In this document: one piece after another, positions 1 through 14,822 of the stretch
Layout of the letters: every line of letters begins with the position of its first letter
Position numbering within the stretch: the stretch's first letter is position 1
Assembly: GCF_000816845.1 (NCBI RefSeq)
Contig: NZ_CP006880.1
Location: forward strand, 2,294,001 to 2,358,000
Direction: 5' to 3'
Source: Rhizobium gallicum bv. gallicum R602sp
GTDB lineage: Bacteria > Pseudomonadota > Alphaproteobacteria > Rhizobiales > Rhizobiaceae
DNA: 64,000 nucleotides
The notes under the pieces: generated by a model
Told to the model about the DNA's origin: nothing
The model's database searches: none
Seen by the model: only the letters and a program-made list of their open reading frames with translations
Translations under genes and position numbers: made by a program

Positions 1-2340
1 ACCGGTTACCGCAAGATCATCGACGCGATCCTGGATGCCGGCGGCGCGCTCGAAAGACCCGCAACGCTAACCGACGGCGGCGTCGGCGCGGCCATTGCCC
101 GTATCGACGGGCTTGCAAAGGTCATGGGCCGGGAGGCCTTCGGCGATGATGTTGCACCCAACGATGCGTGGTCGCTTCGCGTCGTCCGCTCGCCTTATCC
201 GCATGCGGCTTTCGCTTTCGGCGATCTGAAGGCCTGGCGCGACGCCAATCCCGGTGTTGAGCTGGTGCTGACGGCCAAGGACATTCCCGGCAAGAACTGC
301 TTCGGCGTCATCCCGCCCTTTGCCGACCAGCCGGTCTTTGCCGAGAAAGTGGCGCGCTTCCGGGGCGAGGCCGTCGCGGCCGTTGTCGGTGAGGCGAACG
401 CGATCGCCGCACTCGATCTGGAGTGTTTCCCGATCGGCTGGGAAGAGCGCAAGCCGGCAATGACTGTCGCAGAAGCACTTTTGCCGGAGGCAGCCGTCCT
501 CCACGGGAACCGCGCGGGCAACGTGATGTGCAGCGGCTTCGTCAAGCGTGGGGATGTCGAAGCCGGCTTTACCGCCGCCGACATCGTCATTGAGGGCGAT
601 TTTTCAACCGCTTTCGTCGAACACGCCTATATCGAGCCGGAAGCCGGCTATGCTATCCGCATCGGCAATCGGTTGGAAATTTATGGCTGCACGCAGGCAC
701 CCTTCATGGACCGCGACAGCATGGCCGAGATCATGGGACTGTCGCCGGAGGCTGTGCGCGTGGTGCCTTCAGCCTGCGGCGGTGGCTTCGGCTCCAAGCT
801 CGATCTTTCCATACAGCCCTATATCGGTCTTGCCGCCTGGCTCACCAACCGGCCGGTGCGCATGGCCTATTCCCGCACCGAATCCATGCAATCCACCACA
901 AAGCGCCACCCCAGCGAGATCACAATCCGCATCGGTGCGACGCGAGACGGAAAGATCACTGCGCTTGAGTTCAACGGCGATTTCAACACCGGCGCCTATG
1001 CCTCCTGGGGGCCAACGGTCGCCAACCGCGTGCCGGTGCACGCCTCCGGCCCCTACTTGATCGAGAACTATCGCGCGCGGAGCAGGGCGATCCACACCCA
1101 CTGTCCGCCATCCGGCGCGTTCCGCGGATTCGGCGTGCCGCAGGCGGCAATGGCACAGGAGTCCCTGCTCGACGAACTGGCGCTGAAACTTGGCATGGAC
1201 CGCCTGGAACTGCGCCTTCTTAACGCGCTCGACAACGGCCAGCCGACGGTAACGGGCCAGATCTTCGACAAGGGCGTGGGCATCGGCGCCTGTCTGGAGG
1301 CCCTGCAACCCGCCTGGGATCGCGCCGGCCCGGAAGCAAAGGATCGCAACGCCGAAGCCGAACGTTCTGGCAGCCCGCTGCGCTGGGGCATCGGCATCGC
1401 GTCCGGCTGGTACGGCTGCGGCAACACCTCGCTGCCCAATCCCTCGATCATCAAAGCCGGCATTCGCGCCGATGGCACCATCGTCCTGCACCAGGGCGCA
1501 ACCGATATCGGCCAGGGTTCGAACACCGTTATCGCCCAGATTTTCGCGACCGCGCTGGGTGTGCCTGTCTCTGCCTGCATGCTCGTCGGTCCAGATACCT
1601 ACCTGACGCCCGATGCCGGCAAGACCTCCGCCTCCCGACAGACCTATGTTTCTGGCAATGCCGCTAGGCTTTGTGGCGAAGCGCTGAGAACACAGATCCT
1701 AAGGCTCGGCAATGTCTCGGGCGATGCCGAGATTAAGATCGACAACGGCGTCATCCGCCTCGCCGACGGCGAGGTGCGCCGGACGGTTCATCTTGGCGAA
1801 GCTCTGCCTGCCGACGCGGACGGCTACGTCCTCGTGGCCGAGGAAAGCTACGACCCGCCGACAAGACCGCTCGACGAGAACGGCCAGGGCCATCCCTACG
1901 CGGTCTTCGGCTATGCCGCGCAACTGGTCGAACTCAGTGTCGACATGGCGCTCGGCACGGTTAAGCTGCGGAAGTTCACCGCCGCCCATGACGTCGGCAG
2001 GGCGATCAACCCGCTGCTGATCGAGGGACAGATCCAGGGCGGCATCGCTCAGGGTGTGGGTTTTGCGCTGATGGAGGAATTCGTTCCGGGACGCACCGAG
2101 AACCTGCACGATTACCTCATCCCGACCTTCGGCGACATTCCGCCCGTCGAGACCCTGATCGTCGAGGTCGAGGACGGCCATGGACCGTACGGCGCCAAGG
2201 GGCTCGGGGAGCATGTACTGATCCCGACTGCGCCGGCGATCCTCAACGCAATTCGCGATGCTGCGGGCGTGCGCATCCACCACCTGCCAGCGACGCCGGC
2301 GAAGGTGATGGCGGCGATCCGCGCCGCAGTGAAGAACTGA
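1..2340 (+). CDS. Molybdenum hydroxylase (xanthine dehydrogenase family), fused 2Fe-2S + molybdopterin subunit, 5' partial
   Basis: The reading frame is open from base 1, so the start lies outside the window and 779 codons are visible. The first residues (TGYRKIIDAIL) match the end of a CoxS-type 2Fe-2S domain, where CRCTGY ligates the second cluster. A linker then leads into the usual start of a molybdopterin subunit (ARIDGLAKVMGREAFGDD). Later motifs fit the family: GGFGSK near residue 260, GAFRGFGVPQ near residue 370 and KGLGE near the C-terminus, whose Glu is the expected catalytic base. The family hydroxylates N-heterocycles or aldehydes using water. Because a 6-hydroxynicotinate reductase homologue starts 12 bp downstream, a nicotinate-like N-heterocycle is the best guess for substrate. 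An internal ATG at 124 would cut the conserved linker and is not the real start. An FAD subunit, if any, lies upstream. Confidence 0.85.
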   Translation, partial: TGYRKIIDAILDAGGALERPATLTDGGVGAAIARIDGLAKVMGREAFGDDVAPNDAWSLRVVRSPYPHAAFAFGDLKAWRDANPGVELVLTAKDIPGKNCFGVIPPFADQPVFAEKVARFRGEAVAAVVGEANAIAALDLECFPIGWEERKPAMTVAEALLPEAAVLHGNRAGNVMCSGFVKRGDVEAGFTAADIVIEGDFSTAFVEHAYIEPEAGYAIRIGNRLEIYGCTQAPFMDRDSMAEIMGLSPEAVRVVPSACGGGFGSKLDLSIQPYIGLAAWLTNRPVRMAYSRTESMQSTTKRHPSEITIRIGATRDGKITALEFNGDFNTGAYASWGPTVANRVPVHASGPYLIENYRARSRAIHTHCPPSGAFRGFGVPQAAMAQESLLDELALKLGMDRLELRLLNALDNGQPTVTGQIFDKGVGIGACLEALQPAWDRAGPEAKDRNAEAERSGSPLRWGIGIASGWYGCGNTSLPNPSIIKAGIRADGTIVLHQGATDIGQGSNTVIAQIFATALGVPVSACMLVGPDTYLTPDAGKTSASRQTYVSGNAARLCGEALRTQILRLGNVSGDAEIKIDNGVIRLADGEVRRTVHLGEALPADADGYVLVAEESYDPPTRPLDENGQGHPYAVFGYAAQLVELSVDMALGTVKLRKFTAAHDVGRAINPLLIEGQIQGGIAQGVGFALMEEFVPGRTENLHDYLIPTFGDIPPVETLIVEVEDGHGPYGAKGLGEHVLIPTAPAILNAIRDAAGVRIHHLPATPAKVMAAIRAAVKN

Positions 2341-2352
2341 CGGGAAATCCCA

Positions 2353-3846
2353 ATGGTCAAACAAGCGAGCGAAAGCACAATAGATGGCAAGATCCGCTGC
2401 GATGCCTGCCCGGTGATGTGTTACATTTCAGAGGGCAGATCCGGCGCCTGCGATCGCTACGCCAATGTCGGCGGCGACCTCATTCGCGTCGATCCCCTAA
2501 CGATCATCGAGAACCGGAAGGACAATGGCGGCCAGCTCGTTTCCTTCCTGCCGGGCGCCGAAGACAAGGACTGGGACGGCGATCTTGTTCAGGCGAAGCG
2601 CTCCTTCGTCACCGCCGTCGGCGCCGGCACCACCTACCCGGACTATAAGCCTGCCCCCTTCATCGTCTCGCAGCGAGAAGGCGGCGTCGACATGGTGACG
2701 GTCGTCACCGAAGGCATCTTCAGCTACTGCGGCGCCAAGGTGAAAATCGATACCGACCGCTATCTCGGCCCTGAGACCTCTGCCGTGCGCGTTGAAGGCG
2801 AGCCGGTTGGCCATGTCACGACCGGCGAATACGGCTCACAGATGCTCTCGCTCGGCGGCGTCCATCACCTGACCGGCGGGACCAAGAAGGAGGGCCGCCT
2901 CACGTGCGACGCACTTTTGCGACTCTGCAACGGTGAGGCCGTGGCGATGACGATCGACGGCGGCGCGGGGATCGTCGTCAAGGCGGGTACGGCACCGGTC
3001 ATCAACGGCGTCGAGGAACAGCGAATGCGCGTCGGCTGCGGCTCGGCGACGATCGGCATGTTTGCCAAGCAATGGGCGCGGCATGTGGACGAGGTTGTCG
3101 TGGTCGACGACCACATCACCGGCGTTCTTTCCGAACACCAGGCTGGCCGCGTGCTCGACATCCCAGCGACCGGCATCAGGATCAAGGGCCGCCGTTCAAC
3201 CCCGGGTCGCTATTTCCAGGTGGCAGAGCCCGGCACCGGCTGGGGCGGCACCAACATTTCCGATCCGCTCTCGATTCTCGGCGCGTTCGATCCCAAGACC
3301 GCCTATCCCGGCCTGCGCCTCCTGATGGTCTCCACCACGGGTGAGCAATATGGGTACTACATTCTCGACGAAAACCTCGTGCCCGCTCTCCAGACGAGCC
3401 TGCCCGAAGATATCCGCTTATCGGTCGAGCAAATCGCCGAAAATTGCGAGCCGGCCGTCTGCTCGGTGCTTTTCATGGGTGGCGCCGGAGGCAGCTTGCG
3501 CGCAGGGGTCACGCGCAATCCGGTGCAACTCACCCGCTCGGTCAAGGACGCACTGACCTACGTGTCGTGCGGTGGCGCGCCGGCCTATGTCTGGCCCGGC
3601 GGCGGCATTACCGTGATGGCAGACGTGACGCAGATGCCGGCCAATTCCTTCGGCTACGTGCCGACCCCCGCACTCGTCGCGCCAATCGAATTCACTATGC
3701 GGCTTGACGACTACCGTGCGCTCGGCGGCCATATGGAAGCGGTGGTACCGATCGAGGAGGCGCTGAAGGTGGCGGAACGCAAGGTCGCTCAGCGCCAGGA
3801 CGCACCCTGGCCAACCGAAAGCCAAAATTTCAAGTGGCAGGCATGA
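2353..3846 (+). CDS. 6-hydroxynicotinate reductase-like iron-sulfur flavoprotein
   Basis: 497 aa, recognised as a homologue of Eubacterium barkeri Hnr. That enzyme uses reduced ferredoxin to convert 6-hydroxynicotinate to 1,4,5,6-tetrahydro-6-oxonicotinate, and was reported to carry covalently bound flavin, one 2Fe-2S and two 4Fe-4S clusters. Here the N-terminus has a clear cluster motif, Cys16-x2-Cys19-Pro-x2-Cys23-x9-Cys33. Further Cys occur in SYCGAK, VGCGSATIG, NCEPAVC and VSCGGAP. I see no canonical ApbE flavinylation motif (DxxTGAT). The gene lies 12 bp after the Mo hydroxylase and 16 bp before the UPF0280 gene, so one operon is likely. The exact substrate is inferred; another hydroxylated aza-arene is possible. 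Confidence 0.75.
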   Translation: MVKQASESTIDGKIRCDACPVMCYISEGRSGACDRYANVGGDLIRVDPLTIIENRKDNGGQLVSFLPGAEDKDWDGDLVQAKRSFVTAVGAGTTYPDYKPAPFIVSQREGGVDMVTVVTEGIFSYCGAKVKIDTDRYLGPETSAVRVEGEPVGHVTTGEYGSQMLSLGGVHHLTGGTKKEGRLTCDALLRLCNGEAVAMTIDGGAGIVVKAGTAPVINGVEEQRMRVGCGSATIGMFAKQWARHVDEVVVVDDHITGVLSEHQAGRVLDIPATGIRIKGRRSTPGRYFQVAEPGTGWGGTNISDPLSILGAFDPKTAYPGLRLLMVSTTGEQYGYYILDENLVPALQTSLPEDIRLSVEQIAENCEPAVCSVLFMGGAGGSLRAGVTRNPVQLTRSVKDALTYVSCGGAPAYVWPGGGITVMADVTQMPANSFGYVPTPALVAPIEFTMRLDDYRALGGHMEAVVPIEEALKVAERKVAQRQDAPWPTESQNFKWQA

Positions 3847-3862
3847 CACGGACAGTAACGGA

Positions 3863-4852
3863 GTGACGACCTTGGGTCCTCAGGCGAGATACTTGCCGGA
3901 TCAGGACGGATCAGGTGGCAGGCTGCACCTGCAGCACGGCCCGATCGACCTCGTCATCGGCGCCGATGACGGCGCTCGCCTGCGTTGCAACGCGGCAGAT
4001 ATGCGCGCCCGTGCCTTCGAGGTCGCAACTGCGAGGTTCGAAACGGTGCTTGAGGAGCTGACGTCGGAGCTGCCGCTGCTTCGCACCGAAGCGGATCCGG
4101 ACATGTCCGATCCCGGCGGAAGCGTCGCCAGACGGATGGTCGCGGCAGTGAAGCCGCTTTCGCGATACCGTTTCATAACACCGATGGCCGCCGTTGCCGG
4201 CGCCGTCGCGGAGGAAATTCTAGACTCAATGGTTGCCGCTTTTTCACCAGTCGAAAGACCGGCCCGGATCTACGTCAACAATGGCGGCGACATCGCTGTC
4301 CATCTCCACGGTGACGCCTCCTTCCGTGTCCGCATCGCCCGGCTAGACAATGTTTCACTTGGCCATTTCGAGCTGAAGGGCGCCTGCCAGAGCCGCGGTA
4401 TCGCCACCAGCGGCAGGGGGGGCCGCAGCCTCTCGCTCGGCATTGCCGAATCCGTTACCGTCATTGCCCGCACCGCAGCCGAGGCGGATGCCGCCGCGAC
4501 GCTCATCGCCAATGCCGTCGATCTTCCCGGCCATCCTGCAATCGAACGCGTCCGCGCCGTCGATGTCCGCGACGACAGCGATCTCGGAACAAGGCTCGTC
4601 GTGCGCAATTGCGGCAGGCTGGCATCCGACGAGGTCGAGGAAGCTCTGTCACGCGGCGGCGCGGAAGCTGAGCGCTTCATAGCGCTCGGTTTCATCGAAA
4701 GAGCCGCGCTTTTTCTTCAGGATCAGGGGCGCCTGGCAATGGCGTGCGATCAGGACTCCACCGGAAACACAATCATCGCAACGGAGCACGTCAGCCATGG
4801 CCGAACCAAAGATCAGGAAAATCCTTACGGCGGTGGAGGAAATCCGCCATGA
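3863..4852 (+). CDS. UPF0280 family (ApbE-like) protein
   Basis: 329 aa with a GTG start at 3863; a TTG at 3872 is better spaced from the GGAG at 3859-3862 and may be the true start. The core carries ApbE-like signatures: INNGGDIAV-type sequence (VNNGGDIAVHL) near residue 140 and GIATSGRGGRSLSLG near residue 185. ApbE proteins are FAD:protein FMN transferases that attach flavin covalently to Thr/Ser. UPF0280 is a related family without an assigned function that I know of. The last 56 bp overlap the next gene. Its position directly after a reductase whose homologue has covalent flavin suggests a maturation role (inference). Confidence 0.7.
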   Translation: MTTLGPQARYLPDQDGSGGRLHLQHGPIDLVIGADDGARLRCNAADMRARAFEVATARFETVLEELTSELPLLRTEADPDMSDPGGSVARRMVAAVKPLSRYRFITPMAAVAGAVAEEILDSMVAAFSPVERPARIYVNNGGDIAVHLHGDASFRVRIARLDNVSLGHFELKGACQSRGIATSGRGGRSLSLGIAESVTVIARTAAEADAAATLIANAVDLPGHPAIERVRAVDVRDDSDLGTRLVVRNCGRLASDEVEEALSRGGAEAERFIALGFIERAALFLQDQGRLAMACDQDSTGNTIIATEHVSHGRTKDQENPYGGGGNPP

Positions 4853-5381
4853 AGGCGGCACGCCACCTGCAAAGCCGCTGAAGCGCGGCGCCGTGCTTGC
4901 CGTTATCGAAAATCCGTTCGCGGGCGCCTATCATGAGGATATTCAGGGCTTCATGAAGGATCTGGAGCCTCTCGGCCTCGACATGGCGAGGCGGCTGATA
5001 GAAGCGCTCGGCGGCAACGCGGGCGCGATCGAGGGCTATGGCAAGGGCGCGATTGTCGGTCAGGCCGGCGAAGTGGAACATGGCGCCCTATGGCATGTGC
5101 CGGGCGGCTATGCCATGCGCGAGGCATTGGGTAACGCCAAGGCGATCGTTCCCTCGACGAAGAAAGTCGGCGCCGCCGGCACGCGGCTAGACGTTCCCGT
5201 AACCCATATCGATGCGTCCTATGTCCGCAGCCATTTCGACGCCATGGAGGTCGGCCTTGCCGACGCACCGCGCGCTAACGAGATGGTACTGGCGCTGGTA
5301 ATGACCACCGGCGCGCGCATTCACGCCCGCGTCGGCGGACTAAAAGCAGAAGACATCAAGGGAGAGGATGGACTGAGATGA
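4797..5381 (+). CDS. DUF1185 / amino acid synthesis family protein, copy 1
   Basis: 194 aa. ATG at 4797 is preceded by GGAG nine bases upstream, inside the end of the UPF0280 gene. It is clearly paralogous to the next gene: both contain NPFAGxYxED near residue 40, ExYGKxAxVGxxGExEH near residue 80, a VPSxKKxG loop, VRSHFDxMEV and a C-terminal RVGGLK..I.G.DGLR. The family (DUF1185, AA_synth) is small and soluble. Its name rests on a structural guess and no reaction is established to my knowledge. Tight translational coupling with both neighbours implies a role in the same N-heterocycle pathway, perhaps as half of a heteromer with copy 2. Confidence 0.7.
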   Translation: MAEPKIRKILTAVEEIRHEGGTPPAKPLKRGAVLAVIENPFAGAYHEDIQGFMKDLEPLGLDMARRLIEALGGNAGAIEGYGKGAIVGQAGEVEHGALWHVPGGYAMREALGNAKAIVPSTKKVGAAGTRLDVPVTHIDASYVRSHFDAMEVGLADAPRANEMVLALVMTTGARIHARVGGLKAEDIKGEDGLR

Positions 5382-5962
5382 AAGCCGAAATCCGTAAGCT
5401 CGCCGTTTTTCTCGAGGAAACCCATTCTGAAATGGGCCGGACGGTTTCGCCGCCGACCCGCAAGGCGGCCGCAATTGCGGTTATCCGCAACCCCTTTGCC
5501 GGACGCTATGTCGAGGACCTGACGCCGCTGATCGATATCGGCGCCGAACTCGGCGGCCTGCTGGGAGAGAAATGTGTGGTGGCACTGGGCATTGAGCCCT
5601 CCAAGGCCGAGAGCTACGGCAAGGCAGCCATGGTCGGCGAGAACGGTGAGCTGGAACATGCCGCCGCCCTACTGCATCCCGCCATGGGCAAGCCGCTTCG
5701 CGCCGCCGTCGAGAAAGGCGCGGCCCTGGTCCCGTCGTCGAAGAAGCGTGGCGGGCCTGGCCAGACACTCGACATACCCCTCGGCCACAAGGATGCAGCC
5801 TTCGTCCGCTCACACTTCGACGGCATGGAGGTAAGCCTTAACGATTCCCCGCGCGCCGACGAGATCATGGTCGCCGTCGCCGTCACGGACAGCGGCCGGC
5901 CTTTTGCCCGCGTCGGCGGCCTGAAGGTGGACGAGATCGAAGGCAAGGACGGACTGCGCTAG
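5378..5962 (+). CDS. DUF1185 / amino acid synthesis family protein, copy 2
   Basis: 194 aa, the same length as copy 1, starting in an ATGA overlap with it. The shared blocks listed for copy 1 are all present here; the N-terminal 35 residues and the middle differ most. Tandem paralogues with overlapping stop/start codons commonly encode two subunits of one complex, which is my inference. It is the last gene of the rightward operon in this part of the window. No signal peptide or membrane segment is visible. Confidence 0.7.
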   Translation: MKAEIRKLAVFLEETHSEMGRTVSPPTRKAAAIAVIRNPFAGRYVEDLTPLIDIGAELGGLLGEKCVVALGIEPSKAESYGKAAMVGENGELEHAAALLHPAMGKPLRAAVEKGAALVPSSKKRGGPGQTLDIPLGHKDAAFVRSHFDGMEVSLNDSPRADEIMVAVAVTDSGRPFARVGGLKVDEIEGKDGLR

Positions 5963-6273
5963 ATCACGGTGATTTTGATCCATTCCGCCCAAAAATCATA
6001 AATGTGAACGATCTAGAAGGTTAAGGTGTGGTGCCTGCGAAAACCCGCCCACGCCTTTTCTCACTCGGGGCCCCGACAGGAAAGACGGTGCGAAGCGTGG
6101 TCTGATCGTGACGTGTGGAGAAGCTGGTATGGGAGAGCATCCCGGTTAAGGCGCCGAATGTAGACAAGATGGGATTGCCTAGCAACGCGACAATATCAAT
6201 CAAGTTACCTGCTTTCATGAACCACTCGGCACGTCAAAGCGCTGCGGCGATCTGAGTGAAGACCGGCGCTGCG
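5963..6273. other. Intergenic region between convergent operons, no gene seen
   Basis: About 310 bases between the end of the second DUF1185 gene and the end of the enamidase gene on the other strand. A 65-codon open frame on the minus strand has no recognisable content. I see no strong terminator hairpin with a T-run. Confidence 0.5.
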
Positions 6274-7488
6274 TCAGCCATACTGGGCATACCGGCCGAA
6301 GACGATCTCCGGCACCGCCGTGGCCGGCGGCGTGTTGCGGCTTCGCTGTGTCCGGATTACGCCGTCGATGACTGTCATGCCGATCCCGGGCAGGTTGCCG
6401 AGCTTCACGGACTCGAGGAGGGTCGCGCCTGGCGCATGCTGGGCCCGGTCCATGATGACGAAGTCGGCCGTCCTGCCGGGCTCGATGATGCCGCAGTCGA
6501 GATTGCGCTGGCGGGCCGTATTGCCGGTGGCGAAACAGAAGGCCACCTCCGCCGGCGTGTCGGAAAGACTTGCGACCAACGACACCATGCGCAGGATGCC
6601 GAGCGGCTGCACGCCGGAACCCGCCGGTCCATCGGTGCCGAGAATGACCTGATCGAGCTTCTTGAGTTCACGCGCCGTGTTGACCGTCAGCAGCGCCGCA
6701 CGCTCGTTTCCGTTGTGAACGATCTCCAGACCCCGCATGCAGCGCTCGCAGATGCAGACGATCTGGTCGTCCGGCAGCGCCGTATGCCCGCCGTTCAGAT
6801 GGCCGACCACATCGGTATCCGCCTCCAGCACCACATCCTTGTCGATCAGGCCCGAGCCGGGAATCGAAGGACCGCCAGTGTGGATTGTGCTCTGGATGCC
6901 GTATTTGCGCGCCCAGGCCACCATCTGCTTGGCATTGGCGGCGTCCTTGACGCTGCCGAGACCGACTTCGCCGAGCAGCTTGACGCCGGCCTCCGCCAGA
7001 TCCTTGAAATCCTGTTCGACCATGCCCGTCTCGATGACCGGCGCACCGGCATGAACCTTGACCCCTGAGGGACGGAAATTTTCGTAGAACCGCTGCGAGG
7101 CAATCGCATGCGCTTTGAGGCCGACGATGTCGCGCGGACGGCCGGGTGCGTGCACTTCGCCAGCCGAGATCATCGTCGTTACACCGCCGTTGAGCGTCGA
7201 GTCGATCCAGTTCAGTTGCTGCTGGCGCGGTGTGTAGTCGCCGATCACCGGGTGGACGTGGCTGTCGATCAGCCCGGGGGCGACTGTCGTCGCCCTGGCG
7301 TCGACGATCGTCTTGGCGCCTTCCGTGTCGATGTCCTTCTCATAGCCTACTGCGGTGATAATTCCGTCGTCGCAAACGATACAGTCCCCGTCGAGGATCG
7401 GCTGCTCGATCTTGCCGGAAAGGATCAGGCCGATATTCTTGATGACCAGCCTGCCAGCCTTTTCGTTTCCGCCCGCTACATCAGCCAT
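6274..7488 (-). CDS. Enamidase-like amidohydrolase
   Basis: 404 aa from ATG 7488, which has AAGGGGA seven bases upstream; the frame extends further but without support. Amidohydrolase superfamily: the metal motif HVH sits at residues 77-79, then VKLLGEVGLG near residue 175, IHTGG, GHLNGGH and the active-site Asp region LGTDGPAGSG. The sequence is recognised as similar to Eubacterium barkeri enamidase, an Fe/Zn enzyme that opens 1,4,5,6-tetrahydro-6-oxonicotinate to 2-formylglutarate and ammonia. That is exactly the step after Hnr, and the gene faces the Hnr operon. It is probably expressed from the shared region 7489-7690. Other cyclic-amide hydrolases are possible. Confidence 0.75.
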   Translation of the reverse strand: MADVAGGNEKAGRLVIKNIGLILSGKIEQPILDGDCIVCDDGIITAVGYEKDIDTEGAKTIVDARATTVAPGLIDSHVHPVIGDYTPRQQQLNWIDSTLNGGVTTMISAGEVHAPGRPRDIVGLKAHAIASQRFYENFRPSGVKVHAGAPVIETGMVEQDFKDLAEAGVKLLGEVGLGSVKDAANAKQMVAWARKYGIQSTIHTGGPSIPGSGLIDKDVVLEADTDVVGHLNGGHTALPDDQIVCICERCMRGLEIVHNGNERAALLTVNTARELKKLDQVILGTDGPAGSGVQPLGILRMVSLVASLSDTPAEVAFCFATGNTARQRNLDCGIIEPGRTADFVIMDRAQHAPGATLLESVKLGNLPGIGMTVIDGVIRTQRSRNTPPATAVPEIVFGRYAQYG

Positions 7489-7690
7489 TTTCGTCCCCTT
7501 CCTTGATTGTTGCACGCCGGATCCGGCGAAATTTATCTGCGGCACGGTTCGGCGATCCAATTTGCATACGAATGCTAACTTTGCCGGAAATTTCTGTCGA
7601 GCCCAAATCCTTTATTGACAAAAGCGCCGTTTCGGATTTCCATTTCATTCGTACACAAACAAATTATTGTCGATGGAACGGGAAACCCGA
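7489..7690. promoter_or_regulatory. Divergent promoter region of the enamidase and ferredoxin reductase genes
   Basis: About 200 AT-richer bases between two divergent starts. A TTGACA is at 7615-7620 on the plus strand with a weak -10 near 7638. GCATACGAATGC (7564-7575) is a CAT-N4-ATG palindrome, and CATTCGTACA (7646-7655) matches its reverse complement in 9 of 10 bases, making a plausible pair of operator sites. No regulator gene is adjacent. Confidence 0.35.
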
Positions 7691-8533
7691 ATGACCACGC
7701 AATCGACCGGCAAAACCGGCGCAGGAGAGAATGAGGACGCCGACAGGCCGAAATCTCCAGCCCCGGCAGACATCTTTGCTCAGACGGTGACGGCGGTGAA
7801 ACACTACACCGATCGGTTGTTCCATTTCCGCATCACCAGGCCCGCAAGCTTTCGCTTCCGCTCCGGCGAATTCGTCATGATCGGCCTGCCAAATGCGCCA
7901 AAGCCGATATTCCGCGCCTATTCGATGGCCAGCCCCTCTTGGGACGAGGAGATCGAATTCCTTTCGATCAAGGTGCGGGGCGGGCAGTTCACCGAAAACC
8001 TGCAGAAGATCATTCCCGGGGACACGGTGTTGATGCGCAGGAAACCGACTGGTACGCTGGTGCTCGATGCCCTGCTGCCGGGCAAGCGGCTCTACCTCTT
8101 CTCGACCGGAACAGGCGTCGCGCCATTCGCGAGCCTTATCCGCGATCCAGACACCTATGAGAAGTTCGAGGAAGTAATCCTCGTGCAGACCTGCCGAGAA
8201 GTCGCCGAACTCACCTACATCACCGAACTGGTAGACGGACTTAAAAACGATCCGCTGATTGGAGAAGCAGCAAGCGAGAAACTGCGCCTCCATACGACGA
8301 CGACACGCGAAGCCTTCCCCCGCATGGGCCGTGTCACCGATCTCATCCGCAGCGGAGTTTTCTTTCGCGAAACCGGGCTGCCGCTCTTCGATCCGACGCA
8401 GGACCGCGCCATGATCTGCGGCTCGATGGAAATGCTGAAGGACAGCAAGACGGTTCTCGAATCCTTCGGGCTCGTCGAAGGCGCCAACCATGCGCCGGCC
8501 ACTTATGTTGTCGAACGGGCATTCGTCGGTTGA
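7691..8533 (+). CDS. Ferredoxin-NADP reductase family protein
   Basis: 280 aa from ATG 7691; an upstream TTG at 7667 or ATG at 7673 would add up to eight residues. FAD-binding FRAYSMASP near residue 80 (RxYS type), NAD(P)-binding FSTGTGVAPFASLIRDP near residue 145 and MICGS near the C-terminus, ending in a short aromatic-poor VERAFVG tail. A hydrophilic N-terminal extension of about 25 residues precedes the usual start. It moves electrons between NAD(P)H and ferredoxin. Divergent from the enamidase and in the same cluster as an Hnr homologue, it could supply reduced ferredoxin to Hnr (inference). No ferredoxin gene is in this cluster. Confidence 0.8.
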   Translation: MTTQSTGKTGAGENEDADRPKSPAPADIFAQTVTAVKHYTDRLFHFRITRPASFRFRSGEFVMIGLPNAPKPIFRAYSMASPSWDEEIEFLSIKVRGGQFTENLQKIIPGDTVLMRRKPTGTLVLDALLPGKRLYLFSTGTGVAPFASLIRDPDTYEKFEEVILVQTCREVAELTYITELVDGLKNDPLIGEAASEKLRLHTTTTREAFPRMGRVTDLIRSGVFFRETGLPLFDPTQDRAMICGSMEMLKDSKTVLESFGLVEGANHAPATYVVERAFVG

Positions 8534-8880: not shown

Positions 8881-8907
8881 CTGTCATATATAAAACGACA
8901 GATGACA
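8881..8907 (+). promoter_or_regulatory. Overlapping palindromes at the RES/Xre promoter
   Basis: CTGTC (8881-8885) pairs with GACAG (8897-8901), and TGTCAT (8882-8887) pairs with ATGACA (8902-8907). TATATA lies between them. The antitoxin ATG is 13 bp further on. This is the expected position for an autoregulatory antitoxin operator. Confidence 0.5.
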
Positions 8908-8919
8908 CGGAGATGCACG

Positions 8920-9405
8920 ATGGTGGTCGCGGCGGAAAATATCCTTCCTGAAGGTACAGCCGGGGAACTGCAGAAGGTTGCGGCGCTACTTGGTGGCGCC
9001 CGTATCCTGTCGCGCCGGCTCACGAGTGCGCTCGATGCGCATGAGCTCCTGCTGCATGGCCTGCCGACGTCTGCGGTCGATCATCTGATTGGGCAGCTGG
9101 TGTTTATCGGCAAGACCCAATCTCTGGAAAAGGCCGTCGGCATGAGCCTGCGGACCTGGCAGCGCCGCAAGGATGCGCCTTCCAAACCGCTGAGCCAGGA
9201 GCAGAGCGGCCGGGCCTGGAAGTTTGCCGAGATCCTGGCAAAGGCGACGGATGTCTTCGGAACGCAGGCGGAGGCCGAACAATGGTTGGAGGGTCCGGCG
9301 ATTGGGCTCGACCAACGCCGTCCGATCGATCTTCTCGGCACGCCCGCCGGCGTCGAACTGGTCGAGGACTATCTCGAACGGCTTGAATACGGCGTCTATG
9401 CATGA
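8920..9405 (+). CDS. Xre/MbcA/ParS-type antitoxin (DUF2384)
   Basis: 161 aa from ATG 8920, which has GGAG seven bases upstream; an ATG at 8902 is possible but lacks this site. The middle contains an HTH-like part ending MSLRTWQRRKDAP near residue 90, and the C-terminal half has the MbcA/ParS toxin-binding pattern (RAWKFAEILAKATDVFG, AEQWLEGPAIGLDQRRPIDLL, TPAGVELVEDYLERLEYGVYA). It binds and neutralises the RES toxin encoded next and represses the operon. The genes overlap by an ATGA. Start choice is moderately certain; the family call is firm. Confidence 0.85.
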   Translation: MVVAAENILPEGTAGELQKVAALLGGARILSRRLTSALDAHELLLHGLPTSAVDHLIGQLVFIGKTQSLEKAVGMSLRTWQRRKDAPSKPLSQEQSGRAWKFAEILAKATDVFGTQAEAEQWLEGPAIGLDQRRPIDLLGTPAGVELVEDYLERLEYGVYA

Positions 9406-9911
9406 CGCCACTGCCGATCGCGCTCGGCGGGTCCGAGTTGATTGCCTGGCGGCTTGATCAGGCAAGCTTTGCATCGACATGGGATAGCGGCGAAGGCGCC
9501 TACCGGGTCGGGGGGCGCTGGAACAGCAAAGGCGTTCGAGCTGTCTACTGTTCGATCGACCCGTCGACGGCGATCCTCGAGGTCGCCGTTCACAAGGGTT
9601 TTCGCGCACTCGACATGGTTCCCCATATGCTGACGGCGTCCGTCATCACCGACATCGCCGCTGTGCATGTCGTCGATCCTGCGAATGTTCCCAATCCGAA
9701 TTGGCTGCGTCCGGGTATCCCGAGTGCTGGTCAGCAAGCCTTCGGCGACGATCTGCTTCGGCGGCATCGCTTTATCACGATCCCGAGCGCGGTATCGACG
9801 CACAGCTGGAATCTCATTTTCGTGGCAAGCGTTGCGGCAGGCGCGTATGCGCTCAAGTTCCAGGAGGCCTTCGCCCTCGATACAAGACTACATCCGCCAT
9901 CGACGACATGA
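9402..9911 (+). CDS. RES-domain toxin
   Basis: 169 aa, translationally coupled to the antitoxin. RES features are visible: the Arg in AWRL (residue 17), GGRWNSKG near residue 40, the Glu in AILEVAVH near residue 65 and the Ser region IPSAVSTHSWNLIF near residue 130. Characterised RES toxins degrade intracellular NAD+ (hydrolysis or phosphorolysis), stopping growth. The protein appears full length. No mobile element borders it directly, but gene debris lies on both sides, consistent with an accessory module. Confidence 0.85.
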   Translation: MTPLPIALGGSELIAWRLDQASFASTWDSGEGAYRVGGRWNSKGVRAVYCSIDPSTAILEVAVHKGFRALDMVPHMLTASVITDIAAVHVVDPANVPNPNWLRPGIPSAGQQAFGDDLLRRHRFITIPSAVSTHSWNLIFVASVAAGAYALKFQEAFALDTRLHPPSTT

Positions 9912-10963: not shown

Positions 10964-13183
10964 TCATGCGTTAAGTGTCTTGGCAAAGGGCATGGCGCGA
11001 ATCCGCTTGCCCAGCGCCTTGTAGATTGCGTTGGCAACCGCGGGGCCGATCGGCGGAACGCCCGGTTCACCGATACCCGAGGGCGGATTGGCAGAGGCAA
11101 GGATGTGAACCTCCACCACCGGCATCGCATCGATCCGGAGCGGCGTGTACGTATCGAAGTTGCCCTGATCGACCTTGCCTGAGGTCAAGGTGATTTCCTC
11201 GCCCAGAATGGCGCCGAGACCAAAACCGATACCGCCTTCGACCTGGGCGCGGACCTGGTCCGGATTGACGGCCAAGCCGCAATCTACGGCGGCGACAACG
11301 CGTTCGACTTTGATGCCGCCACTGTCGTCGGTCGAAACTTCCGCAATCTGCGCAACCACCGACCCAAAGCTTTCCGCAACCGAAACGCCGCGGAAACGGC
11401 CTTTCGGCAGCGGTTTGGTCCATTCGGCCTTTTCTGCTGCGAGCTTGAGTACGACCGCGTGGCGCGATTGCGGATCGAGCATCGACAAGCGGTATTCGAT
11501 CGGATCACGCCCTGCCGCTTCGGCGACCTCGTCGATGAAGGTTTCGGCGGCAAAAGCCGTATGCGTCGAACCCACGGAACGCCACCACAGGACAGGTACA
11601 CCGACGTCGGTTGTCGTCAGTCCGACCGCCTGGTTGGGAATGGCATACGGCAGGTTGTTCGCCCCTTCGACCGAAGTCGGGTCGACGCCGTTCTGGATCG
11701 CGCCTTCGAACATTGTCTTTGCCATGATGGACTGACCGACAATGTGGTTGCTCCAGGCCACGAGCTTTCCGTCACCATCGATCCCGGCCTTGAGCGTATG
11801 GACATAGGATGGGCGATATCGGCCGGCGCGCATGTCGTCCTCGCGGGTCCATTGCACCTTCACCGGCGCCCGGAACCCGATAGCCTTGGCGACATAGACG
11901 GACTCGACGACCACATCGCCATCGAACACGGCGCGTCGGCCGAAGCTGCCGCCCGTCTTCATGACATGCAGTTGCACCTTGTCTGGCGTGATGCCGACGA
12001 TCTGGCCGGCCAGCATCTGATAGACGTCGGGGAACTGATGCCCGCCCCAGATTTCCAGCGTGCCGTCGTCATTCCTGCGGGCGACTGCATTGAGCGGTTC
12101 CATCGCCGAATGCGCCAGATAGGGGAACTCGAAGGTCGCCTCGATGACCTTGGCCGCCGCCGCAAAGCCCGCGTCGGGGTCGCCGTCCTTGCGGGCGACC
12201 GCTTTGGGAGCCTTGCCCGCGAGATCCCTGTACATTGCCATGAGTTCGGGCGTGCCGCGTTTTTCCGCCGCCGTCTCGTCCCATACGACCTTGACGGCTT
12301 CGCGGCCCTTGATCGCCGCCCACATATGCTCAGCGACGACGGCGATACCGCGCGGCGTCTCGACCACATCGACGACCCTCTTGACGGCACGCGCCGCGGC
12401 GGCATCGAAGGACTTGACCTTGGCACCGAACATGGGCGGATGGATCATCACCGCCGTCAGCATGCCGGGAAGCTTGACGTCGATCGTGTACTGCTCGGTT
12501 CCGTTGGTCTTGCGGGCACTGTCGAACCGCTTCAGCTTGGCATTGCCGATCAGCTTCCAGTCGGCCGGCTGCTTGAGTTTCACATCAGCCGGCACGGGCA
12601 TGGCCGCGGCCTTGGCGGCAAACGCACCGAAGCCGGCGGTCTTGCCGGACGGATGTGCCAGCACGCCGTTTTCGACGGTGATCTCCGCCGGCTGCACACC
12701 CCATTCGGATGCCGCAGCGGCCACCAGCATGGCGCGCGCCGCCGCGCCTGCTTTTCGATAGCGTTCCCAGGAGGTGACCATCGAGGTGGACCCGCCCGTT
12801 CCCTGAATGGCGCCGCCAAAGGCGACGTTGCCATAGGCCTTCACATTGCCGGCGACGCCCTGGACATCGATGGACGACCAATCGGCGTCGAGTTCTTCCG
12901 CAACGAGCGTTGCAAGACCGTTATAGGAACCCTGTCCCATTTCGAACTGGGACGACAGAACCATGACCCTGCCGTCGCCGTCGATCGTCAGATAAGGGGT
13001 GAAGGCAGCCGCCTTGTTTGCATCCGCCGCAGTTTCGCTCGCGGCGGCAGGCGACGAAGCCAGAATATGGTAGCCGACGGCAACACCGCCACCGGCCGCG
13101 AGCGCGCCAAGCATGAACTGCCGGCGGGATGCCTGCGTCTTTGCCACGGGCAGCACCAGGGATTGCATCAGTTTCGGGATCAT
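10964..13183 (-). CDS. iorB: Isoquinoline 1-oxidoreductase beta-like molybdopterin subunit
   Basis: 739 aa. A twin-arginine signal is visible (SRRQFM with Arg20-Arg21, then an Ala/Gly-rich segment and ASSPAAA), as in IorB-type subunits. Two Mo-domain signatures follow: [19 protein letters not shown] near residue 80 and [12 protein letters not shown] in the middle. The C-terminal [19 protein letters not shown] carries the catalytic Glu. The start is 4 bp after the 2Fe-2S subunit stop. This subfamily oxidises N-heterocycles or aldehydes in the periplasm and often passes electrons to a c-type cytochrome. The substrate cannot be told; the nearby cytochrome c gene is frameshifted. Confidence 0.85.
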
Positions 13184-13186
13184 CGC

Positions 13187-13645
13187 TCAGACCTCCAAAC
13201 GCTTGGCAGCTTCATGAATCCCGGCACGGATTCGGTGATAGGTGGCGCAACGACAGAGATTTCCCGTCATCGCGGCGTCGATATCGTCGTCGGTGGGCTT
13301 TGGATTGTTCGTCAGCAGATCGGTCGCCGATATGATCTGCCCGGACTGACAGTAGCCGCATTGCGGCACATCGAGATCGGCCCAGACCGTCTGCACGGTT
13401 TGTGCCACCTTGCCCGAAAGCCCCTCGATGGTCGTCACTTTCGCGTCGCCAATGTCGCCGACGAATGTTTGACAGGAACGCACTGCCGCGCCGTCCAGCA
13501 GGACGGTGCAGGCGCCGCATTGCGCCATGCCGCAACCGAATTTCGTCCCTGTCAGCCCGACGAGATCGCGGATTGCCCAGAGAAGCGGCATATCCGCCTC
13601 GGCCTCGACCTGATGTTCGTTGCCGTTGATCGTCAAAGTCACCAT
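13187..13645 (-). CDS. iorA: 2Fe-2S subunit of Mo-hydroxylase (IorA-like)
   Basis: 152 aa; ATG 13645 has AGGAGA eight bases upstream. It has the two-cluster layout of the CoxS family: [16 protein letters not shown] near residues 38-60 for the plant-type cluster and CGYCQSGQI ... CRCATY near residues 98-135 for the alpha-helical cluster. It transfers electrons from the Mo centre of IorB. It is the first gene of the iorAB pair, 230 bp downstream of the AraC gene on the same strand, so AraC control is likely but not shown. Confidence 0.9.
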
Positions 13646-13877: not shown

Positions 13878-14822
13878 CTAGCCGACGGAGCTGCGGCTGG
13901 CTGAATCGCCGGCATTGAGGATGGCCCTGACGTCGCGCAGAGGAGGATGACCGAACATGCGGCGATACTCCCGGCTGAACTGCGTCGGGCTCTCATAGCC
14001 AACCTTGAGCGCCGCGGTCGCCGCATCCAGCGAGCCAGACAGCATCAGTTCCCGCGCATGGTGAAGCCGCAGATGCTTCTGGAATTGCAGCGGGCTCATG
14101 GCGGTCATGGCCCGGAAATGATGATGCAGCGTCGAAACGCCCATGTTTGCCATGTCCGCCAACGCCTCGACGCGAAGAGGCATGGCATAGTTCTCCTTCA
14201 GCCAGGCAACCGCTTTTGCCACGCGGTTGCTATTCGTTCCGGCGAGCGCAAAGCGGCGCAGGCGCGCACCATGTTCACCTGTGAGGAGTCGGTAGTAGAT
14301 TTCGTTCTGAATATGGTTCGCCATGAACGGAATATCGTCAGTCGAATTTGCCAGCGAAATCAATCGCCCGAAGGCGTCGTAAAGTTCCGGCGTAACCGTA
14401 CCCACGACGACGCCGCGGTCGCGGTCGGATGTATCCGTCGGATGCAGATCGTGGTTGGCAATCAGACGCCGAAGCGCCTCGAGATCCAGGCGCAACTGGC
14501 CAGCCACATAAGGCTCCACCTTGCTCGCCTCACAGATTTGGCCGGTCATCGGCAGGCCGATGGTCGTGAGGAAGAAGTGTGACGCATCATAGACAAGTGT
14601 TTCGTCCCCGACACGGACGCGCTTGCTCCCGCTGATGATCACCGAGAGACTGGGTTGATACAATGTGAAGAAGGGTCCGGCAGGCTCGACGACGCGATAG
14701 AGCGACAGGCCCGGTATCTCGTGCTTGAAATTGATGCCATCCCACGGCAATTGCGCCAGCACGTCGAGAATCCGCGAACGAATGCCAGCCGTTTGATCCT
14801 GAAAACTCTCCGCGTGGGCCAA
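13878..14822 (-). CDS. AraC family transcriptional regulator
   Basis: 314 aa. The N-terminal two thirds match the AraC_N cupin-like effector domain (LSVIISGSKRVRVGDETLVYDASHFFLT near residues 60-90). The C-terminal 100 residues hold two HTH motifs (RVEALADMANMGVSTLHHHF; AALKVGYESPTQFSREYRRMFG). Members of this subgroup often control small oxidoreductase genes. It lies directly upstream of iorAB on the same strand, its likely target. The start at 14822 fits the usual family length. Confidence 0.85.
   Translation of the reverse strand: MAHAESFQDQTAGIRSRILDVLAQLPWDGINFKHEIPGLSLYRVVEPAGPFFTLYQPSLSVIISGSKRVRVGDETLVYDASHFFLTTIGLPMTGQICEASKVEPYVAGQLRLDLEALRRLIANHDLHPTDTSDRDRGVVVGTVTPELYDAFGRLISLANSTDDIPFMANHIQNEIYYRLLTGEHGARLRRFALAGTNSNRVAKAVAWLKENYAMPLRVEALADMANMGVSTLHHHFRAMTAMSPLQFQKHLRLHHARELMLSGSLDAATAALKVGYESPTQFSREYRRMFGHPPLRDVRAILNAGDSASRSSVG

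Follow-up and report, generated by a model that had tools for sequence, protein, structure and literature searches.

We analyzed a 64,000-nucleotide stretch of DNA from Rhizobium gallicum bv. gallicum R602sp, referred to here as the window (contig C4:2294001-2358000 of a 7.3 Mb genome in 4 contigs). At 2.47 Mb, contig C4 probably represents a secondary replicon. Our subject is the gene cluster at the left end of the window, which is built around a homologue of 6-hydroxynicotinate reductase (Hnr). A preliminary description of positions 1-8533 had listed a molybdenum (Mo) hydroxylase, Hnr, UPF0280, two DUF1185 proteins, an enamidase homologue, and a ferredoxin-NADP reductase (FNR), and the open reading frames (ORFs) together with their family and PDB matches bear out that list:

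<1-2340, plus strand: Mo-hydroxylase subunit, C-terminal 779 of 928 amino acids, cut by the window start; Pfam MoCoBD_1/2 and Ald_Xan_dh_C.
2353-3846, plus strand: Hnr, 6-hydroxynicotinate reductase homologue, 497 amino acids; named by its homologues.
3863-4852, plus strand: UPF0280 (COG2122-type) protein; NCBIfam NF003322, 354.3 bits against a cut-off of 290.
4797-5381, plus strand: DUF1185a (PF06684, subfamily a by a subfamily tree); 240.6 bits against a cut-off of 27.
5378-5962, plus strand: DUF1185b (PF06684, subfamily b); 245.8 bits against a cut-off of 27; PDB 2qtp, E 1.2e-96.
6274-7560, minus strand, ATG probably at 7488: enamidase homologue; PDB 2vun (ENAMIDASE), E 1.2e-106, residues 37-418.
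7667-8533, plus strand, ATG at 7691: FNR-like protein; FAD_binding_6 over its cut-off.

Many of the 120 listed homologues of Hnr are called 6-hydroxynicotinate reductase by their sources, and the closest Hnr proteins in a plasmid collection are those of Rhizobium sp. 007 (98.4%) and R. etli 8C-3 (96.6%). The complete Mo subunit (L004:11554-14340) is a 928-amino-acid [2Fe-2S]+MoCoBD fusion of the XDH family. The start given earlier for the FNR, 7691, coincides with an ATG; against the equivalog NF008178 this protein scores 117.5 bits, under the cut-off of 390. For comparison, we sampled Hnr across Proteobacteria, nearly all of them Alphaproteobacteria, using 62 Hnr loci of at least 20 kb and 240 alphaproteobacterial genomes (38 with Hnr and 202 without). 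The co-occurrence statistics below are uncorrected for kinship, and the trees are quick trees under a plain model. Because the order Hnr, then UPF0280, then DUF1185 is found again in most of the 62 loci, the grouping of these genes goes beyond chance.

Given the gene content, the homology, and a published cluster of the Azorhizobium caulinodans type, the assignment of the cluster to reductive nicotinate catabolism of the Eubacterium barkeri/Azorhizobium type in an aerobe is well supported. The reductive nicotinate route proposed in the preliminary description thus stands, although what was called a candidate there is an already-known cluster and not new. E. barkeri nicotinate fermentation has its first three enzymes in common with the window. 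This anaerobe is said (Alhapel 2006) to continue via 2-(hydroxymethyl)glutarate to pyruvate and propionate, whereas beside the window no genes for such a continuation were recognized by eye. The available part of PMC3511419 describes the Hnr cluster in Bradyrhizobiaceae and others, namely A. caulinodans ORS571 (AZC_2804-2790), Bradyrhizobium USDA110, Rhodopseudomonas palustris HaA2, and strain SG-6C; A. caulinodans and SG-6C are nicotinate users, and the Azorhizobium route passes through glutarate. For the pathways of E. barkeri and Azorhizobium, that paper refers to Alhapel 2006, Kitts 1989, and Kitts 1992. Judged from that published description, the Azorhizobium/Bradyrhizobium-type cluster likewise keeps together the genes for the first three steps, an ATP-binding cassette (ABC) transporter, and conserved proteins of unknown function, and it likewise serves a tetrahydro-oxonicotinate route in an aerobe.

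In the scheme that we propose, the ABC transporter would import nicotinate, the XDH-family Mo hydroxylase would convert it to 6-hydroxynicotinate, and Hnr would reduce this to 1,4,5,6-tetrahydro-6-oxonicotinate, with electrons perhaps arriving via ferredoxin and the FNR. The enamidase homologue would then open the lactam ring to give 2-formylglutarate and ammonia. In the alignment with PDB 2vun its HxH, E, H, H, and D positions are identical, and these are presumably the amidohydrolase metal ligands of enamidase. Carbon would leave via the glutarate route, as described for Azorhizobium. We computed the gene content, the co-occurrence, the UPF0280 fold, and the enamidase/HyuAB exchange described below; from these we infer all of the chemistry, including nicotinate as the substrate in R602sp, the tolerance of oxygen, the role of the FNR as electron donor, and the roles of UPF0280 and DUF1185.

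The Mo hydroxylase next to Hnr comes in two builds, an XDH-type FAD (flavin adenine dinucleotide) subunit plus fusion protein, or a NicB type with cytochrome c domains. When the builds were compared across Hnr loci (such as L013, L023-L029, and L078-L088 versus L030-L067), all four combinations with enamidase and HyuAB, the putative alternative ring opener in relatives, were found. The Bradyrhizobium and Afipia loci in our sample have the NicB type, whereas the window has the XDH-type fusion, like many Rhodobacterales loci. In 27 of the 62 loci an FNR gene is found no farther than 10-12 kb from Hnr, and R602sp has a second FNR copy, 64% identical, on contig C1. A Rieske oxygenase gene stands beside Hnr in 12 of the 62 loci (L014, where it is of the VanA_C type, L031, L049, L058, L061, L062, L065-L067, L072, L092, and L095); perhaps it is an N-demethylase that admits a methylated pyridine.

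The same chemistry could act on another N-heterocyclic acid, such as a substituted pyridine or diazine carboxylate, in place of nicotinate, although we regard this as improbable. The XDH-type Mo hydroxylase leaves room for it, since all its NCBIfam matches fall under the curated cut-offs and sequence cannot give substrate range, and the entry compound may differ in the 12 loci with an added Rieske oxygenase. Nicotinate is favored by the description of such clusters in the nicotinate users A. caulinodans and SG-6C (available part of PMC3511419), by the closeness of the window enamidase to the solved enamidase, and by the NicB-type hydroxylases (annotated nicA/nicB in L013) that stand in for the XDH type beside Hnr.

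Hnr and UPF0280 are confined to the identical 38 of the 240 genomes. The preliminary description had assigned no role to UPF0280 and DUF1185; the genome comparison suggests roles tied to Hnr and to enamidase. Hnr matches no Pfam or NCBIfam family at E 0.001, and a PDB sequence search gave no match under E 0.3. The sole Pfam matches of the window Hnr up to E 10, GCV_T_C (E 0.029) and DUF374 (0.14), were taken as chance. Seven cysteines (C16, C19, C23, C33, C126, C229, and C365) are present in 93 of 93 aligned Hnr proteins, and an eighth, C185, in 92 of 93. Hnr has been reported to carry a covalent flavin. The AF2 structural model of UPF0280, which we take to be the same family as COG2122, matches the ApbE flavin transferases as a group in a fold comparison, and a profile alignment indicates that UPF0280 keeps the ATSG and ADA..T stretches of ApbE. 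Our best reading is that UPF0280 may serve specifically to mature Hnr, in the simplest case by attaching the covalent flavin. A canonical ApbE is unlikely to be the general flavinylator of Hnr, as none was shown in 19 of the 38 Hnr genomes.

Two candidate ring openers alternate beside Hnr. The 62 loci divide into 40 with enamidase, 12 with HyuA and HyuB, none with both, and 10 with neither; the 38 genomes divide into 14 with enamidase (at least 64% identity), 23 with HyuA (at least 56%), none with both, and 1 with neither (G302, 70% complete). The chance of zero overlap between enamidase and HyuA in the 38 genomes is 1.6e-9, uncorrected for kinship. By hand count, 17 of 23 HyuA genomes and 11 of 14 enamidase genomes have the respective gene no more than 10 kb from Hnr (or, where the contig is broken, from the UPF0280 of the cluster). 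Among 11 further HyuAB-type genomes (eight of the named loci, G002, G030, and G046), 10 lack enamidase genome-wide at E 1e-30; the HyuAB-type genome G061 has an enamidase at 56% identity beside its own DUF1185 pair. The exclusion is not strict, however. Five enamidase genomes contain HyuA paralogues of 41-46% identity, the HyuA genome G180 contains an enamidase-like gene (39%), HyuA at 55-66% occurs in 4 of the 202 Hnr-less genomes (G190, G203 in part, G258, and G293), and other Hnr-less genomes have an enamidase at 73% (G158) or enamidase-like genes at 38-41% (G136 and G278).

The HyuAB proteins of the relatives (the window has none) belong to the same family as the caprolactamase CapAB and 5-oxoprolinase. 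HyuA and HyuB of L013 have caprolactamase subunits as their best matches, but their scores of 482.5 and 309.2 bits fall far below the equivalog cut-offs of 1000 each. In an alignment, L013 HyuB keeps the four metal ligands D, H, D, and H of CapB, which are given in the available part of PMC8453981. The relation of these proteins to lactams can be set beside two further points. One is that tetrahydro-oxonicotinate belongs to the unsaturated delta-lactams; the other, according to the accessible portion of PMC11033972, is that the oxoprolinase pair OplAB hydrolyses delta-valerolactam. A search of the open literature found, judged by titles and abstracts, no related paper linking a hydantoinase or oxoprolinase with nicotinate or 6-hydroxynicotinate.

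In a tree of 93 Hnr proteins (65 labeled enamidase and 28 HyuAB), the ring-opener label changes 8 times, at least 4 of them on starred, well-supported branches, and the window Hnr (enamidase) is sister (99) to a group of ten HyuAB rows (98), the nearest of which is 82% identical. The tree leaves out 22 of 114 candidate loci, which had no ring-opening label or a match shorter than ~380 residues; rows L046, L055, L060, L061, L097, and L102 were labeled enamidase from a genome-wide search rather than from the locus, and the class-sample rows were likewise labeled from genome-wide enamidase and HyuA searches. These sequence comparisons point to a putatively ATP-dependent, caprolactamase-like HyuAB that often replaces enamidase as an unrelated ring opener.

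DUF1185b follows the enamidase. It is present in 56 of 56 enamidase loci versus 13 of 31 HyuA loci (all of at least 12 kb), and most of those 13 are from Rhizobiaceae. Genome-wide in the 38 genomes, b (at least 58% identity, a line set after the values were seen) is found in 14 of 14 enamidase genomes versus 3 of 23 HyuA genomes (G156, G180, and G271), a link with a Fisher probability of 1e-7, uncorrected for kinship. In the enamidase rows L046 and L055, which have no b in the locus, b lies ~2.2 kb or less from an enamidase elsewhere in the genome, and in G158, which has enamidase and no Hnr, b is present on another contig. The more distant genes nearest to b (46-51%) are in the HyuA genomes G155, G157, G169, and G263, and further b-like genes (48-56%) stand beside true b in the enamidase genomes G083, G147, and G261. 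In a quick tree of 65 of the 177 DUF1185 rows, b forms one supported group (96), and a includes members from other contexts. Eleven polar residues (N38, K82, E91, E93, H94, H100, R108, R144, E162, R174, and R178, in b numbering) are invariant across the 177 rows, three of which are TgnF-like, and because of this both DUF1185a and DUF1185b look competent.

It could be argued that enamidase clusters and HyuAB clusters serve different substrates, so that HyuAB is no stand-in for enamidase. The association of DUF1185b with enamidase and not with HyuAB means that the two cluster types differ in more than a single gene; 4 of the 202 Hnr-less genomes contain a HyuA relative of at least 55% identity; and, by hand count, HyuA and Hnr lie apart in 6 of the 23 genomes. 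We nevertheless find two substrates rather unlikely, given that Hnr is not split into two clades but shows 8 label changes with the window as sister to HyuAB rows, that either Mo hydroxylase type is found with either ring opener, and that HyuAB is by family nearest to lactam hydrolases. We therefore keep the replacement of one ring opener by the other as the preferred reading.

DUF1185 genes also occur in other settings. At ~5.8-10.7 kb of L005 (C4:1922001-1942000), a third DUF1185 gene of R602sp stands with genes for a luciferase-type monooxygenase, a flavin reductase, an alpha/beta hydrolase, and an aldehyde dehydrogenase, and a set of this type is also found on a Leisingera plasmid (L021). 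The L005 set resembles what we take to be the tgn genes for trigonelline (N-methylnicotinate). More distant enamidase-like genes adjoin DUF1185 at G061:C4:423377-425804 (56%) and in L233 (G286:C1, ~40%), which suggests that the enamidase-DUF1185 pair works outside the Hnr cluster too. The common thread of these contexts may be an open-chain formyl diacid or its enamine. Two other ideas were rejected. DUF1185 does not hold in general as a step shared by the two variants, as 4 of 23 HyuA genomes lack any DUF1185. Nor is subfamily a tied to HyuAB, as it accompanies enamidase too and 9 of the 31 HyuA loci (12 kb or longer) are without it.

Our best reading is that DUF1185b would act directly after enamidase, on its open-chain product (enamine or formyl diacid), by deamination, tautomerization, or decarboxylation. 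Considering the cluster as a whole, we think it likely that a secondary replicon encodes a reductive nicotinate pathway in which UPF0280 matures Hnr and DUF1185b works on the enamidase product. Several observations weigh against this. UPF0280 lacks the HxxDPRTG loop, which belongs to the ApbE/Ftp flavin transferases (ten ApbE proteins have HxxDPRSG as their consensus); it is absent in a 31-sequence alignment and lies opposite a gap in the profile alignment. When four UPF0280 proteins were tested up to E 10, all stayed under the cut-off of 25.6 bits for Pfam ApbE PF02424 (no match for the window and L037, 15.3 for L072, and 16.7 for L097). By eye, the 93 Hnr rows show no conserved acceptor motif of the generally known ApbE type, and the idea of one was rejected; the nearest stretch is CGSAT, with the T in 75 of 93 rows. 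In the available part of PMC5764234, the likeness of COG2122 to ApbE seemingly stops short of the flavin-binding region, a persulfide role is proposed, and homocysteine synthesis requires COG2122 together with DUF39 and a NIL/ferredoxin protein.

UPF0280 might accordingly mature Hnr without flavin chemistry, by delivering Fe-S or persulfide or as a structural partner, and we give this somewhat less than an even chance. The missing loop, the role of COG2122 in homocysteine synthesis, the proposed persulfide role, and the eight conserved cysteines of Hnr would all fit such a function. The modeled fold, the retained ATSG and ADA..T stretches, and the covalent flavin reported for Hnr speak instead for flavin attachment.

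On the side of DUF1185b, a phylogenetic pair test of its link with enamidase was not significant (4 independent starred-branch pairs, median p 0.5), and four HyuA genomes have no PF06684 match (G142, G260, G272, and G309), so DUF1185 is no shared step of the two variants. In L019 and L022 the DUF1185 gene has FAH- and VOC-family neighbors, a setting with no obvious nitrogen chemistry. As far as the available text goes, attempts to detect a helper effect for HcdD, a DUF1185 protein, were unsuccessful (PMC7913881), and the DUF1185 structure paper proposes amino-acid metabolism (PMC2954203). A more specific possibility, which we hold to be doubtful, is that DUF1185b decarboxylates 2-formylglutarate to glutarate semialdehyde and so opens the glutarate route, with TgnF doing likewise with 2-formylsuccinate in trigonelline breakdown. 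It would agree with the Azorhizobium route via glutarate (PMC3511419, in part), with the citation of TgnF, a DUF1185 protein and HcdD homologue, as stimulating succinic semialdehyde oxidation (PMC7913881, citing Perchat 2018, in the accessible text), and with the invariant polar residues shared by a, b, and TgnF-like proteins, including Arg 108, 144, 174, and 178 of b. Yet b is absent from 20 of the 23 HyuA genomes, and in 4 of these no DUF1185 is present at all, although the same decarboxylation is expected there, and the negative HcdD result applies here too. An action of DUF1185b on the enamidase product, with its exact reaction left wider, is the reading that we prefer.

To the left of the window, where an FAD subunit, a transporter, and formylglutarate genes had been suggested as worth looking for, the first two are present: the FAD subunit at L004:10514-11557 and the ABC transporter at L004:5141-9927. 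The FAD, [2Fe-2S], and Mo parts of the hydroxylase thus all adjoin Hnr. The transporter, directly left of the window, is of the branched-chain type and consists of five genes, for a substrate-binding protein, two permeases, and two ATPases; a MarR gene (L004:9930-10409, minus strand) lies between it and the FAD subunit. Transporter and MarR were named via annotated orthologues in the relative locus L013. No formylglutarate-processing gene of the E. barkeri type was seen in 12 kb to the left and 16 kb to the right, where the ORF lists were read by eye and not every ORF was scanned against families. The protein at L004:2848-4425 looks membrane-bound by eye; 10 of the 62 Hnr loci contain a member of its family, and the one in L013 has no Pfam match. 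Just right of the cluster, the overlapping small genes at 8902-9405 and 9402-9911 of the window look by eye like an Xre-type antitoxin/RES-domain toxin pair. Farther on, and apart from the nicotinate genes, 10964-13645 (minus strand) and 13878-14822 (minus strand) hold by eye a second Mo hydroxylase (739-amino-acid large subunit and 152-amino-acid [2Fe-2S] subunit) and an AraC-type regulator-like gene.

Tentatively, these results may mean that UPF0280/COG2122 is a second class of flavin-attaching protein, without the HxxDPRTG loop, that serves Hnr and by extension the DUF39 proteins of methanogens and Desulfovibrio, and that ring opening in the pathway can be done by either of two enzymes, an enamidase that needs no ATP and works with DUF1185b, or the ATP-dependent lactamase HyuAB. 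The identical genome sets of Hnr and UPF0280 offer a tractable aerobic system for studying the function of UPF0280/COG2122, a question that bears also on how methanogens and sulfate reducers make homocysteine. The exchange of enamidase and HyuAB, together with the tie between DUF1185b and enamidase, gives PF06684, a structurally known family, a concrete substrate to test, and it could correct annotations in relatives whose HyuAB is called N-methylhydantoinase or acetophenone carboxylase.

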